A DNA stretch of 47,612 nucleotides from Solirubrobacteraceae bacterium (GTDB taxonomy: Bacteria; Actinomycetota; Thermoleophilia; Solirubrobacterales; Solirubrobacteraceae): positions 1-47,612 of the forward strand of contig JADGPP010000019.1 of the NCBI GenBank assembly GCA_017882375.1, read 5' to 3'. The first letter of the stretch is position 1, and the number at the start of each line of letters is the position of its first letter. Below, one piece after another: positions 37,175 to 45,342 of the stretch. The translations under genes were made by a program, and so were the position numbers. The notes beneath the pieces were generated by a model. The model made no database searches. It saw nothing but the letters and a program-made list of their open reading frames with translations, and was not told where the DNA came from.

Positions 37175-38134
37175 CTAGCGCTTGGAGAACTGTGGCTTCT
37201 TACGGGCCTTCTTCAGGCCGGCCTTCTTGCGCTCCTTGGCGCGCGAGTCGCGCGTCAGAAAGCCTCGGCGCTTGAGCTCGCCGCGCAGGTTCGGGTCGGC
37301 CTCCAGCAGGGCGCGCGAGACGCCGTGGCGCAGCGCGCCGGCCTGCGCGGAGATGCCGCCGCCATGCAGCCGGGCGACGACGTCCATCTTCTCCTGGTAG
37401 CCGACCGTCTCCAGCGGCTGGCGGATGTTGCGCTGCAGCGTGTCGCGCGGAAAGTGCTGCTCCAGCGTGCGACCGTTGATCAAGTACGTACCCTTGCCCG
37501 GCTTCAGCGTGACGCGCGCGATCGCCGTCTTGCGCTTGCCGGTCGCGCGGTAGCGCGCGTCGGCGGCCAGGTCGATCGCCGCCGAGGCGATCGGCTCGCT
37601 GAGGGCCTCCTCGCCCGGCTCCTCGCCCTCGGCCGCGGTTGCCGGCTCGCCCTCCTCGCCCTCGACCGCATAGGGATCCTCATAGCCCGGCTGCTCACGG
37701 CCCAGCGGATCGGCGCCCTCGGGAACGATGTCCACTTCCAGGTGCGCGCCCGGCACGGACGGTTTGGCGCTCGGCGTCGCCTCGGGCTCGGCGTCGCTGG
37801 AGTCCTCGGCGTCCTCGTCAACCGCAGCCTCCATCGCGACCTTGTCCTCGGCCTCCTGCAGCGCCTCCAACGGAGCGTCCTCGGCCACGCCGGCGATCTC
37901 CAGCGCGTCCTTGCTGGGAACCGCGTGACCCTCGCCGCCGGGCTCGGCCGTGGCCGGCTCGGGCGGTGTCTCGCCGCCGGCCTCGATCGCCTCCTGCGCG
38001 GCCTCCAGGGCCGCGTCCTCGACCGAGCCGGCGATTTCGCTCGCCTCCTCGCTTGGCACGGCGTGCTGCGGCGTCTCCTCCGCGGGCGTCTCGGCGTCTG
38101 CGGGCGTCTGCGGGGTGTCCTCGTCGGCCATCAT
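37175..38134 (-). CDS. rpsI: Ribosomal protein S9 with a ~190-residue acidic N-terminal extension
   Basis: The C-terminal ~125 residues are ordinary S9: [52 protein letters not shown], and the basic tail [16 protein letters not shown] that reaches the P-site tRNA. The first ~190 residues are Glu/Asp/Ala/Pro-rich with almost no basic residues, whereas S9 is normally 130-160 residues in all. The extension has an internal repeat: [20 protein letters not shown] (from residue 24) and [20 protein letters not shown] (from residue 70), each ending in an LEA-QEA helix. The frame is continuous with no in-frame ATG that would give a plain S9. The start ATG (38134 or 38131) overlaps the rplM stop, which argues that the extension is translated. 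Confidence 0.93.
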
Positions 38135-41734: not shown

Positions 41735-44008
41735 ATGAGCGAGGGGGTGAACATCAGCTACGAGGCGCACGCGATCGAGGCCCGCCGGCAGGCGGCCTGG
41801 CGCGAGCGCGACGCCGCGCGCACCCCGACCGTGTTCGATGACCAACCACATCTGTACATCAAGCCGTCGGCCCCGTTCACGTCGGGCAACGTGCACATGG
41901 GCCACGTGCGCAGCTATTCCGTCGGAGACGCCTACGCGCGCTTCAGGCGAGCACGCGGAGATCGTGTCCTGTTCGCTTTCGGTTTTGATGCCTTCGGCCT
42001 GCCCGCAGAGCTCGGTGCGATCGCCGGCGGCGTCCCGCCGAGCGAGTGGGTGGCGCGCTGCGCCGAGCACATGACCGGGCAACTGCAACGGCTGGGATTC
42101 TCGTTTGACTGGGAGCGCACGTTCATGAGCTCGGACCCGGTCATGTACCGTTGGTCGCAGTGGCTGTTCCTGGCGCTGCTGGAGGCCGGACTGGTCTACC
42201 GCGGCACGGGCAACGTCGACTGGTGCGACACCTGCCAGACGACGCTGGCGACGATCCAGGTCGAGGATGGCCTGTGCTGGCGCTGCCACAACCCCGTTCG
42301 CCTGATCGAGCGCCCCACGTGGTACCTGCGCGTCAGCGCCTACACCCAGGAGAACGACCGCCGCCTGGACGAGCTCGCCGGCGGCGGGCGCTGGGACGAG
42401 GTAGCGCTGGCCAGCCAGCGCTTCGTGCTCGGGCGCGTCGACGGGGTCGAGGTGGACCTGAGCGCAGCCGGCGACGGCCCGGCGTTGTCGGTGTTCACGC
42501 CGCACGCCGACTCGCTGGAGCTCGCGCGCTTCGTGCTGATCTCGCCCAAGCACCCGGAGATCGACGCCTGGGCCGCCGACCCGGAGGTTCACGAGCGCCT
42601 GGAGGAGCTGCGCTCGGGCGGGCTGGAGCGAAGCTCGCGCGACGCACGGGCGATCGCGCTGATCGACACCGGCCGTTCGCTACCCGCGCCCGCGGGCGGC
42701 GGATCGCTGCCGGTGCTGATCTCGCCGGCCGTCGACGGCCGCTTCGGCGCGACGGCGGTGTTCGGCATCCCCGAGCACGACCGCACCGACGAGGTGATCG
42801 CCGAGCGCCTGCCCGAGCTGCTGGCGGCCTCCCGCGGCGCCGGGGGGGCCGATGCGAGCGCGGGCGGCGGCGAGGCATCGGCGCCGCGCGCGGCGTTGCG
42901 CTACAAGGCCGACGACTTCTCGATCTCGCGCCAGCGCTCGTGGGGCACGCCGATCCCGATCGTGTACTGCGAGGCGCACGGCGCCGTGCCCGTGCCCAAG
43001 GAGCAGCTGCCGGTGCTGCTGCCGCTGGACATCAGGCCGACCGGCGCCGGCAACCCGCTGGCCGAGCTGAGCGAGTTCGTGCAGACGACGTGCCCGCTGT
43101 GCGGCGGCCCGGCCGAGCGCGAGACCGACACGCTGGACTGCCACTTCGACGCGCTGTGGCTGTGGGTTCCCGTGTGCGTGCCGCCGGAGTCGCGCGAGGA
43201 GACCCTCGAGGAGATCCTCGCACTGGCAGACCTGCGCCAGTGGCTGCCCTGCGAGCGCGTCGTCGCCGGCTCTGACAGCGGCAACTTCGTGTTCGACCAG
43301 CGGATCGTCACCAAGGCGTTGCGCGACCTCGGCCCGCTGGCCTTCCTGCAGGACGGCGAGCCGTTCGCGGGCTGCCTGTTTCACGAGATGGTGATCAGCG
43401 ACGGTCGCAAGATGAGCAAGCACCTGGGCAACGTCGTCGACCCGGACGCGCTGGTCGAGCGCTACGGCGCCGATACGGTGCGCCTCGCCGTGCTCTACGC
43501 GGCCCGTCCGCAGAAGACGCTGAACTGGAACGACTCGGCGGTCCTGCGCGCGCACCGTTTCCTCACGCAGGTGTGGGAGTTCTCCCAAGCGCGCATCGCT
43601 GCGGCAGAGCTGCTCGCGCAGACCGAGCGGGCGGCCTCCGGCGAGGGGTCCGACGCGGAGCCCGTGAGAGACACCAGCGAGCACCTGCGGCTGAAACTGT
43701 CACAGTGGTGTGAGAAGGGTGCGGAGAAGATCACACAGGACATGGAGGGCCTGGAGATGCACAGCGCCGTGCGCAATGTCATGCGGCTGTTCGACCGCGT
43801 CAAGGACTTCGACAAGCGCGTGGTCGCGCGCCAGGGCGCGCTCGGCCGCGCCGACAACGACGCGCTGCTGGAGGCGCTGGCCCTGCTTTCCCAGCTGCTC
43901 GGCCCGTTCGCTCCGCACATGGCCGAGGAGTTGTGGCTCAGCTTGGGCAATGACGAGAGCGGCGCACAAACGCCGTGGCCAGGCGTATCGTTGCAGGCAG
44001 TCGCATGA
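41735..44008 (+). CDS. Divergent leucyl-tRNA-synthetase-like class I protein
   Basis: 757 residues with LeuRS architecture: HIGH region TSGNVHMGHVRSYSVGDAYAR (HMGH 54-57), zinc ribbon WCDTCQ...CWRCHN (Cys164/167/181/184), editing-domain remnant, SRQRSWGTPIPIVYCE, and KMSK loop DGRKMSKHLGNVVDPDALVERYGADTVRLAV (KMSKH 559-563). Several LeuRS hallmarks are altered. The PYPSG lead-in is SAPFTSG. The editing Thr-rich peptide TTRPDT is TPHADS (255-260), though HDxxD survives (348-352). The usual GG-EHA-x-HLLY-x-RF helix is AGSDSGNFVFDQRIV (511-525). The leucine-specific insertion and C-terminal domain are missing. ATG 41735; the stop overlaps thrC. It may be a second, repurposed synthetase. Confidence 0.85.
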   Translation: MSEGVNISYEAHAIEARRQAAWRERDAARTPTVFDDQPHLYIKPSAPFTSGNVHMGHVRSYSVGDAYARFRRARGDRVLFAFGFDAFGLPAELGAIAGGVPPSEWVARCAEHMTGQLQRLGFSFDWERTFMSSDPVMYRWSQWLFLALLEAGLVYRGTGNVDWCDTCQTTLATIQVEDGLCWRCHNPVRLIERPTWYLRVSAYTQENDRRLDELAGGGRWDEVALASQRFVLGRVDGVEVDLSAAGDGPALSVFTPHADSLELARFVLISPKHPEIDAWAADPEVHERLEELRSGGLERSSRDARAIALIDTGRSLPAPAGGGSLPVLISPAVDGRFGATAVFGIPEHDRTDEVIAERLPELLAASRGAGGADASAGGGEASAPRAALRYKADDFSISRQRSWGTPIPIVYCEAHGAVPVPKEQLPVLLPLDIRPTGAGNPLAELSEFVQTTCPLCGGPAERETDTLDCHFDALWLWVPVCVPPESREETLEEILALADLRQWLPCERVVAGSDSGNFVFDQRIVTKALRDLGPLAFLQDGEPFAGCLFHEMVISDGRKMSKHLGNVVDPDALVERYGADTVRLAVLYAARPQKTLNWNDSAVLRAHRFLTQVWEFSQARIAAAELLAQTERAASGEGSDAEPVRDTSEHLRLKLSQWCEKGAEKITQDMEGLEMHSAVRNVMRLFDRVKDFDKRVVARQGALGRADNDALLEALALLSQLLGPFAPHMAEELWLSLGNDESGAQTPWPGVSLQAVA

Positions 44009-45342
44009 GCCCGCAAACCGTAGAGAGCCCTCGACAAGGGTCCCGGCAGCGCACGCGCTCCTGCGCAACGGAGCTGGTCTGTCAGCGCTGCGAGAACAGC
44101 TATCCACTGGAGTCGACGGTCTTCTCCTGCCCGGACTGCGGCAAGGGGCTGGACATCGCCTACGACTACGAGCTGGCCGCCAGCCACTTCAAGGACTTCC
44201 CCGGCTCCGAGCGCCCGCAGAACATCTGGCACTTCGAGGAGCTGCTGCCGATCGTCGACGCGGCGGCGCAGGCGCGCGTCGGCCAGCACTCCGGCTACAC
44301 GCCGATGATCCGCGCCGACCGGTTGGGCGCCGAGCTGGGCATCGCCAACCTGTACCTGAAGGACGACTCGAGCAACCGCCCGAGCCTCTCCTACAAGGAC
44401 CGGGTCGTGTCGATGTCGGTCGCGCGGCTGCTCGAGCGCTCAAAGACGGAGATCGGCTGCGTCTCCACCGGCAACGTCGGCACGGCGGTGGCCTCGATGG
44501 CCGCGAAGGCCGGCGTCGACGCGTTCATCTTCTACCCCAACCGCCTGGAGGAGATGAAGGCGCGCGCGTGCATGGCGCTGGGCGCGAAGGTCGTGCAGGT
44601 GCAGGGCAACTACGACGAAGCCAACCGCCGCTGCCGCGAGGTGGCCGAAGCGACGGGCATGGACTTCGCGAACATCACGCTGCGCCCGTTCTACGCCGAG
44701 GGCGCCAAGACGGCGGCGTTTGAGATCGTCGAGCAGTTCGACTGGGAGTCGCCCGACCACATCGTCAGCCCGGCCGCCGGAGGCACGCTCTCCTCGCGCC
44801 TGCACAAGGGGTTGATCGAGCTGCAGCTGCTCGGGCTGTCAGAGACCGACGGCACGAGGATCCACATCGCCCAGCCCAGCGGCTGCAACCCGATCGCCAG
44901 CGCGATCCTCGCCGAGGAGGCAGAGGTCCATCCGGTGATGCCCGAGACCGCCGCCCACTCGCTGGCGATCGGCGCACCGGGCGACGGCTATCTGGTGATC
45001 GACGCCGTGCACAAACGCGGCGGCACGGCCGGCTTCGCGTCGGACCCGGAGATCTTCGCGGGCATCGACCTGCTGGCGGCGACCGAGGGCCTGCTGACCG
45101 AGCCCGCCGGCGGCACGACGGTCGCCGTACTGGAGAAGCTCGCCGCGGCCGGACGTTTCGCGCCCGGGGAGACGGTGGTCGCGCTGATCACCGGCAACGG
45201 CTTGAAGACGCTCGACGAGCACCCGCAGAAGCCGTGGCCGGCGAAGATCGACTGCGAGCTCGATCCGATGCTCGCGGCGCTGGCCGAGCTCAAGAGCGGC
45301 GAGTCGCTGCTGCAGAGCGCTCGCAGACAGCTGGCGCAGTAG
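44005..45342 (+). CDS. thrC: Threonine synthase (zinc-ribbon type)
   Basis: A fold-type II PLP enzyme that converts O-phosphohomoserine to threonine. Begins with a zinc ribbon: CQRCENSYPLESTVFSCPDCG (Cys26/29/42/45), as in archaeal-type ThrC. PLP lysine is Lys131 in RPSLSYKDRVVSMSVA. The phosphate-binding turn is CVSTGNVGTAVASMAAKAG. A late block is GLLTEPAGGTTVAVLEKL. 445 residues. The ATG overlaps the stop of the LeuRS-like gene (ATGA). The SYKDR and STGNVGTA motifs differ from the usual SFKDRG and SSGN-A, so a related PLP lyase/synthase is possible. Confidence 0.85.
   Translation: MSPQTVESPRQGSRQRTRSCATELVCQRCENSYPLESTVFSCPDCGKGLDIAYDYELAASHFKDFPGSERPQNIWHFEELLPIVDAAAQARVGQHSGYTPMIRADRLGAELGIANLYLKDDSSNRPSLSYKDRVVSMSVARLLERSKTEIGCVSTGNVGTAVASMAAKAGVDAFIFYPNRLEEMKARACMALGAKVVQVQGNYDEANRRCREVAEATGMDFANITLRPFYAEGAKTAAFEIVEQFDWESPDHIVSPAAGGTLSSRLHKGLIELQLLGLSETDGTRIHIAQPSGCNPIASAILAEEAEVHPVMPETAAHSLAIGAPGDGYLVIDAVHKRGGTAGFASDPEIFAGIDLLAATEGLLTEPAGGTTVAVLEKLAAAGRFAPGETVVALITGNGLKTLDEHPQKPWPAKIDCELDPMLAALAELKSGESLLQSARRQLAQ

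Follow-up and report, generated by a model that had tools for sequence, protein, structure and literature searches.

A divergent leucyl-tRNA synthetase-like protein of Solirubrobacterales, linked to a third threonine synthase-like enzyme and possibly directed to an amino acid other than leucine

The window analyzed here, a whole 47,612-nt stretch on contig JADGPP010000019.1 of a Solirubrobacteraceae bacterium, carries two overlapping genes, one for a divergent leucyl-tRNA synthetase (LeuRS)-like protein, named LeuRS2, and one for a threonine synthase (ThrC)-like, pyridoxal phosphate (PLP)-dependent enzyme, named ThrC3. LeuRS2 represents a separate conserved family in which the catalytic motifs are intact, the amino acid pocket is rewritten, the C-terminal domain of LeuRS is lost and, in one subclade, ThrC3 is co-inherited. 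Together, LeuRS2 and ThrC3 probably produce and activate a non-leucine amino acid. The motifs first reported for LeuRS2 (SAPFTSG, HMGH, TPHADS, AGSDSGNFVFDQRI and KMSKH), its zinc ribbon, its length of 757 residues and its coordinates were all confirmed when rechecked on the open reading frame (ORF). The features of the locus are collected in Table 1.

Table 1. Features of the LeuRS2-ThrC3 locus and of the separate tRNA locus. Plain coordinates are those of the window and residue numbers those of LeuRS2; G, C and L numbers are our handles for genomes, contigs and loci.
Feature	Position	Strand	Basis
LeuRS2, divergent LeuRS-like protein, 757 aa	41735..44008	+	ORF, family scores, tree, AlphaFold2 model
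Altered pocket motif SAPFTSG, residues 45-51 (LeuRS M-L-P-Y-P-S-G)	41867..41887	+	F48, T49 invariant 21/21
HMGH (HIGH) ATP-binding motif, residues 54-57	41894..41905	+	H54, G56, H57 invariant
Zinc-ribbon cysteines C164, C167, C181, C184	42224..42286	+	Sequence
CP1 editing-type domain, altered T-rich motif TPHADS, Asp349/Asp352 kept	42407..42892	+	Pfam PF13603 44.6 bits; alignment columns
Pocket segment T-L-D-C-H-F-D-A-L-W-L-W, residues 466-477	43130..43165	+	C469, H470, D472 invariant; L476 fixed in ThrC3-linked clade
Specificity helix region R-V-V-A-G-S-D-S-G-N-F-V-F-D-Q-R, residues 508 to 527, in place of LeuRS Q-Y-I-G-G-x-E-H-A-I-x-H	43256..43315	+	
KMSKH (KMSKS) loop, residues 559-563	43409..43423	+	Invariant in family; same variant in IleRS of L087
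Helical anticodon-binding-type domain; LeuRS C-terminal domain absent beyond	43535..43954	+	PF08264 48 bits; alignment end
ATGA overlap, LeuRS2 stop / ThrC3 start	44005..44008	+	ATG at 44005, TGA 44006-44008
ThrC3, third, divergent threonine-synthase-like PLP enzyme	44005..45342	+	PF00291 221 bits, TIGR00260 210 bits; own clade
N-terminal zinc ribbon of ThrC3 (CxxC...CxxC)	44080..44139	+	Four Cys invariant, 14 orthologs
Predicted PLP-binding lysine of ThrC3 (SYKDR)	44395..44397	+	Invariant; aligns with SFKDR lysine of ThrC
Extra 73-nt tRNA	G000:C53:93038-93110 (L245:1501-1573)		
ArgRS-like gene region	L295:9107-12969; tRNA/ArgRS relatives L280-L287, L296-L303		

By its Pfam and NCBIfam domains LeuRS2 is a class I synthetase, and its best family is bacterial LeuRS. 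In the NCBIfam profile search it scores 441 bits against TIGR00396 (leuS_bact), below the cut-off of 548.4 bits, and its orthologs likewise score below that cut-off. The AlphaFold2 model (pLDDT 88) has LeuRS as its top PDB match (Z ~40). LeuRS2 shares with bacterial LeuRS (LeuS) the fold, the domain order as far as the anticodon-binding domain, the HxGH and KMSK motifs, CP1 and the zinc ribbon, but differs from it in its rewritten pocket, its changed T-rich motif, its missing C-terminal domain, its sub-cut-off score and its position in a clade of its own.

We compared active-site columns between 21 aligned LeuRS2 family members and LeuRS, with E. coli numbers counted on the alignment. The catalytic residues H54, G56, H57, D85 (equivalent to E. 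coli Asp80, for the alpha-amino group), K559 and K562 are invariant in all 21 proteins, and the leucine pocket residues (E. coli M40, Y43, Y499, E532, H533 and H537) are replaced in every one of them. Y43 has become Phe and P44 Thr throughout. At the other positions, M40 is replaced by Ser, Ala or Gly, L41 by Ala, Ser, Cys or His, Y499 by Leu, Gln, Met or Thr, Y527 by Val, Leu or Ile (with one Tyr), E532 by Asp, and H533 by Ser, Gly, Ala or Thr, while H537 falls in a one-residue gap. We take Y43, D80, E532, H533 and H537 to be residues of the leucine and alpha-amino site of E. coli LeuRS. In the specificity helix region, where E532, H533 and H537 are lost, G512, D514, D521, Q522 and R523 are invariant (21/21), and the invariant residues that are new to the LeuRS2 family are C469, H470, D521, Q522, H563 and L564. 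The editing domain and its Asp are retained, with T-P-H-x-D-A/S as the T-rich motif in most members. The altered motifs are fixed across about 20 orthologs and are therefore neither sequencing errors nor the product of drift. M40, Y499 and Y527 are among the E. coli LeuRS sites that have been engineered to accept other amino acids (PMC7782748), and all three are substituted in LeuRS2, apart from the single Tyr at the Y527 position.

Three traits had been put forward as special in the original prediction, and these survived in part. The missing C-terminal domain is a genuine distinction, as LeuRS2 proteins end after the helical domain and the local normal LeuRS has this domain in the alignment. 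The leucine-specific insertion before KMSKS is indeed missing, but it is also missing from the genome's own normal LeuRS, for which reason we rejected it as a special feature; some other bacterial LeuRS lack it as well (PMC5059758). Similarly, the last residue of KMSKS is His in LeuRS2, but KMSKHLGN also occurs in an actinobacterial IleRS (at L087), and the variant was set aside.

LeuRS2 is not the only LeuRS of its genome. A canonical leuS, with an open frame of 856 residues, lies on another contig, and a normal LeuRS above the family cut-off was found in 19/19 genomes with LeuRS2. A maximum-likelihood tree was built from 27 LeuRS2 proteins, 18 LeuRS and three IleRS/ValRS; in it LeuRS2 forms one clade and the 18 LeuRS another (support 100/100 for each), and the LeuRS2 stem has a length of 1.49. 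LeuRS2 thus falls outside the sampled LeuRS clade, although its attachment point is unsure because long branches meet in the tree. A recent origin of LeuRS2 by copying of the local LeuRS is clearly excluded.

We searched 101 genomes of the order, 299 of the class and 396 across the phylum, and additionally scanned GTDB genome contigs. The bearers of LeuRS2 are some Solirubrobacterales soil actinobacteria; in the order and class samples they belong to the window's genus (6/6 sampled), to a genus of the Conexibacter type and to two genera in another Solirubrobacterales family, with one further genome besides. The phylum-wide sample of 396 yielded no member outside the holders found in the order and class samples; the contig scan added members, all labelled as Solirubrobacterales except one labelled just Actinobacteria bacterium. 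Isolates with LeuRS2 include Conexibacter sp. CPCC 206217, Conexibacter sp. CPCC 205762 and Solirubrobacter soli DSM 22325. Matches of 37-40% elsewhere in the class and phylum proved, where checked, to be normal LeuRS. An Actinokineospora match (L087) is also a normal LeuRS and adjoins a normal IleRS.

ThrC3 resembles threonine synthase (ThrC, TIGR00260) in its fold, PLP lysine, zinc ribbon and above-cut-off score (210 bits against a cut-off of 167 bits), but it is a third copy with changed motifs. Its tree places it in a clade of its own, apart from the ThrC copies of the same genomes (support 100, stem 1.83). The motifs RPSLSYKDR, STGNVGT and AAGGTLSSR are changed with respect to ThrC and largely fixed in the ThrC3 clade. 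A second in-frame start for ThrC3, a GTG, lies upstream at 43975. Between relatives, both LeuRS2 and ThrC3 show ratios of nonsynonymous to synonymous substitution rates (dN/dS) of about 0.19-0.30, and both genes are therefore under purifying selection.

The overlap between the LeuRS2 stop codon and the start of a zinc-ribbon PLP gene was predicted correctly, and it was observed only near the window's genus. Elsewhere the two genes are neighbours in the same orientation, separated by as much as ~0.9 kb, or ~1.9 kb in one genome. The adjacency is not peculiar to this strain, since the pairing is conserved in two families of the order. We refer to the LeuRS2 subclade that is linked to ThrC3 as clade A, and to the subclade without ThrC3 beside it as clade B. 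Among the 299 class genomes, ThrC3 is present in 13 of the 14 clade A genomes and in none of the remaining 285 (Fisher p 7e-22, with no correction for phylogeny); in the fourteenth, a contig edge falls inside LeuRS2. Other ThrC copies accompany ThrC3 in clade A genomes, two of them in nearly all. In one genome (G065) LeuRS2 and ThrC3 lie on different contigs and both are kept, with ThrC3 still beside its usual GtrA neighbour. The trees of the two proteins agree in most groupings. Columns at which clade A is conserved and clade B differs fall in the pocket more often than expected (7/24 against 18/319 conserved columns, p 7e-4), with the pocket windows for this comparison drawn by the analyst after viewing the alignment.

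For the activity, substrate and acceptor of LeuRS2, and for the order of the two steps, we infer the following. LeuRS2 would be a repurposed class I synthetase that has kept the machinery for joining an amino acid to ATP and has had its pocket rebuilt for a substrate other than leucine. In clade A, ThrC3, as a PLP enzyme of threonine synthase descent, would produce or modify that amino acid, and LeuRS2 would hand the activated aminoacyl group to an acceptor. Such an acceptor could be a small molecule, a precursor of a lipid or glycan, or an aminoacyl-tRNA with a use outside translation; these seem more likely than ordinary tRNA-Leu for protein synthesis because LeuRS2 has lost the C-terminal domain that contacts the long arm of tRNA-Leu and has no dedicated tRNA gene beside it (none directly adjoins it at 16 loci). 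We give about even chances to LeuRS2 being an ATP-dependent activator of a non-leucine amino acid that ThrC3 supplies or modifies, for transfer to a further acceptor. A more specific version, in which the two enzymes form a module, ThrC3 makes a non-protein amino acid, LeuRS2 attaches it to a non-translational acceptor and the pocket has co-evolved with the partner, is proposed more tentatively.

Several observations weigh against this interpretation. Clade B (the Conexibacter type, Solirubrobacter soli and second copies in genomes G053 and G270) has no adjoining ThrC3, and therefore ThrC3 is not needed by every LeuRS2. The LeuRS2 of G064, which branches alone near clade A, also lacks an adjoining ThrC3. 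CP1 and the anticodon-binding domain are kept and conserved, which would fit continued use of a tRNA. Beyond ThrC3, the neighbours of LeuRS2 differ between lineages, and hence no pathway can be named. The suggestion that LeuRS2 acts on a different amino acid supplied by its partner is our preferred interpretation, favoured by its place outside the sampled LeuRS clade, its rewritten pocket and the way in which pocket residues track ThrC3, but it is weakened by the occurrence of LeuRS2 without that partner, and the amino acid, the acceptor and the partner's reaction are all putative.

Repurposed synthetases are known from several families. In MshC, the mycothiol ligase derived from CysRS, the class I synthetase fold serves a small-molecule acceptor. 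LeuRS2 resembles proteins of the SbzA and MshC kind in being a paralog that stands beside a normal synthetase and keeps its catalytic motifs, but it differs from MshC in scoring just 22.5 bits against TIGR03447, for which the cut-off is 485 bits. Precedents for repurposed or duplicated synthetases include SbzA, an IleRS-like transferase of SB-203207 biosynthesis (PMC6331615), and the LeuRS duplicates of archaea (PMC9437257). Like LeuRS2, SbzA is a class I paralog beside a normal copy, and its role is non-translational, as we propose for LeuRS2; it differs in being derived from IleRS rather than LeuRS, in keeping a C-terminal tRNA-binding domain and in lying within a clear antibiotic cluster (PMC6331615). 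The archaeal LeuRS-I of Sulfolobaceae and LeuRS2 of Halobacteria are alike in being duplicated LeuRS, described in the consulted part of a review as impaired in canonical activity (PMC9437257). LeuRS-I keeps a divergent C-terminal domain, and that part of the review mentions no ThrC-like partner for the archaeal duplicates, gives archaeal examples only and describes no non-translational function for a LeuRS paralog (PMC9437257). A phrase search for LeuRS-like or LeuRS paralog returned no match in the paper collection searched. If our interpretation is true, the conserved pairing of a LeuRS-derived activator with an enzyme derived from ThrC would indicate that this poorly cultured group makes an amino acid and a product that have yet to be described. 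Because the pocket differs between the clades with and without the partner, the question of the substrate is directly testable.

Among the alternatives, the one that survives best is a role for LeuRS2 in loading a non-standard amino acid onto a special tRNA, either for translation or as a donor, although we consider this unlikely. The retained CP1 and anticodon-binding domains would suit such a role. In addition to its normal tRNA-Leu(UAA), the genome of the window encodes an extra tRNA of 73 nt, which also has anticodon UAA but a short variable loop; full-length matches to this extra tRNA in the order sample occur in LeuRS2 genomes only. The lack of a tRNA gene directly beside LeuRS2 argues against this alternative, as does the genomic context of the extra tRNA, which lies just upstream of a divergent ArgRS-like gene in 8/9 genomes. 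Six of the 17 LeuRS2 genomes in the class sample have no ArgRS-like gene, and four of these (G099, G047, G053 and G065) gave no match to the extra tRNA. Because the tRNA goes with the ArgRS-like gene and several LeuRS2 genomes have no match, the charging of this short-arm tRNA (UAA/UGU) by LeuRS2 is unsupported by its distribution. Three genomes conversely have the ArgRS-like gene without LeuRS2, and we therefore treat the ArgRS-like gene and its tRNA as a separate system.

It seems rather improbable that LeuRS2 is a second LeuRS still making Leu-tRNA, for instance under stress or for self-immunity, as with AgnB2 of Agrobacterium K84. The overall LeuRS fold, the catalytic motifs and the zinc sites are kept, and self-immunity LeuRS copies do exist (PMC5059758). 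AgnB2, however, keeps the residues of the sensitive LeuRS except for KQSKS, and its C-terminal domain contacts the variable loop (PMC5059758), whereas LeuRS2 has kept neither the leucine-site residues nor that domain. The long LeuRS2 stem and the absence of a recognised antibiotic cluster at the locus also argue against this explanation.

We attach still lower probability to the two genes being unrelated neighbours, with LeuRS2 doing one job and ThrC3 serving as a spare threonine synthase. ThrC3 does pass the thrC cut-off and clade B lacks it, but the co-occurrence described above, the retention of both genes on separate contigs, the two other ThrC copies in nearly all of these genomes and the long ThrC3 stem all speak against this explanation. 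Inactive synthetase paralogs acting as sensors or regulators are known in general, and LeuRS2 could have such a non-catalytic role with a short XRE-type gene, found between the pair in one family, as its target, but this is very unlikely given that HxGH, KMSK and the Asp80 equivalent are invariant in 21/21 proteins.

Around the putative activator and its partner, gene content varies, and ThrC3 is the sole constant neighbour of LeuRS2 in clade A. In the window's genus, the pair has guaBA as its neighbour or a flippase-like LPG_synthase_TM gene after it. The other family has GtrA and PMT-type genes upstream of the pair, the short XRE-type gene in antisense orientation between the two genes, and an alpha/beta hydrolase gene downstream. 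No RNA element was detected between LeuRS2 and ThrC3 by Rfam at eight loci. We rejected a link to lipid aminoacylation, as the flippase-like gene follows ThrC3 in three genomes only and no transferase domain was found there. A link to hopanoid synthesis was also rejected; HpnH is missing from the other sampled genera with LeuRS2 and occurs in genomes that lack LeuRS2. In two species (L039:7950-12761 and L046:1-4583), hopanoid genes encoding HpnH-like, squalene/phytoene synthase and amine oxidase proteins are convergent to the LeuRS2-ThrC3-flippase operon. At L041:3055-4408, LeuRS2 and ThrC3 are separated by a patatin-like gene and by a degenerate fragment that resembles the LeuRS2 end. In Solirubrobacter soli (L086:10759-11769), the LeuRS2 gene overlaps at its end with a gene for an AurF-type N-oxygenase, after which comes an acetyltransferase-like gene.

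The ArgRS-like gene is followed by a PabAB-type gene, and several genomes add GNAT, deacetylase-like, chorismate-mutase and P450 genes; this could possibly be a biosynthetic cluster that includes a synthetase together with its own tRNA. Relatives of the extra tRNA have a strongly conserved body and an anticodon that is UAA or UGU by lineage, and the tRNA beside related ArgRS-like genes has AGU in G300 and UCU in the Conexibacter-type genus. Second ArgRS-like copies occur at L320 (G000:C153:30262-31611) and L318 (G081:C59:10825-12471), with no tRNA gene in the stretch retrieved. Two degenerate tRNA-like genes with low scores, one of the Leu(CAG) type and the other of the Thr type, were seen at G000:C144:1084-1164 and G000:C90:6521-6594. 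Elsewhere in the window, a 319-aa ORF on the reverse strand (37175-38134) ends like ribosomal protein S9 and has a long acidic, Ala/Glu-rich N-terminal extension; ORFs of 296-308 aa occupy the equivalent place in related genomes (L038 and L155).

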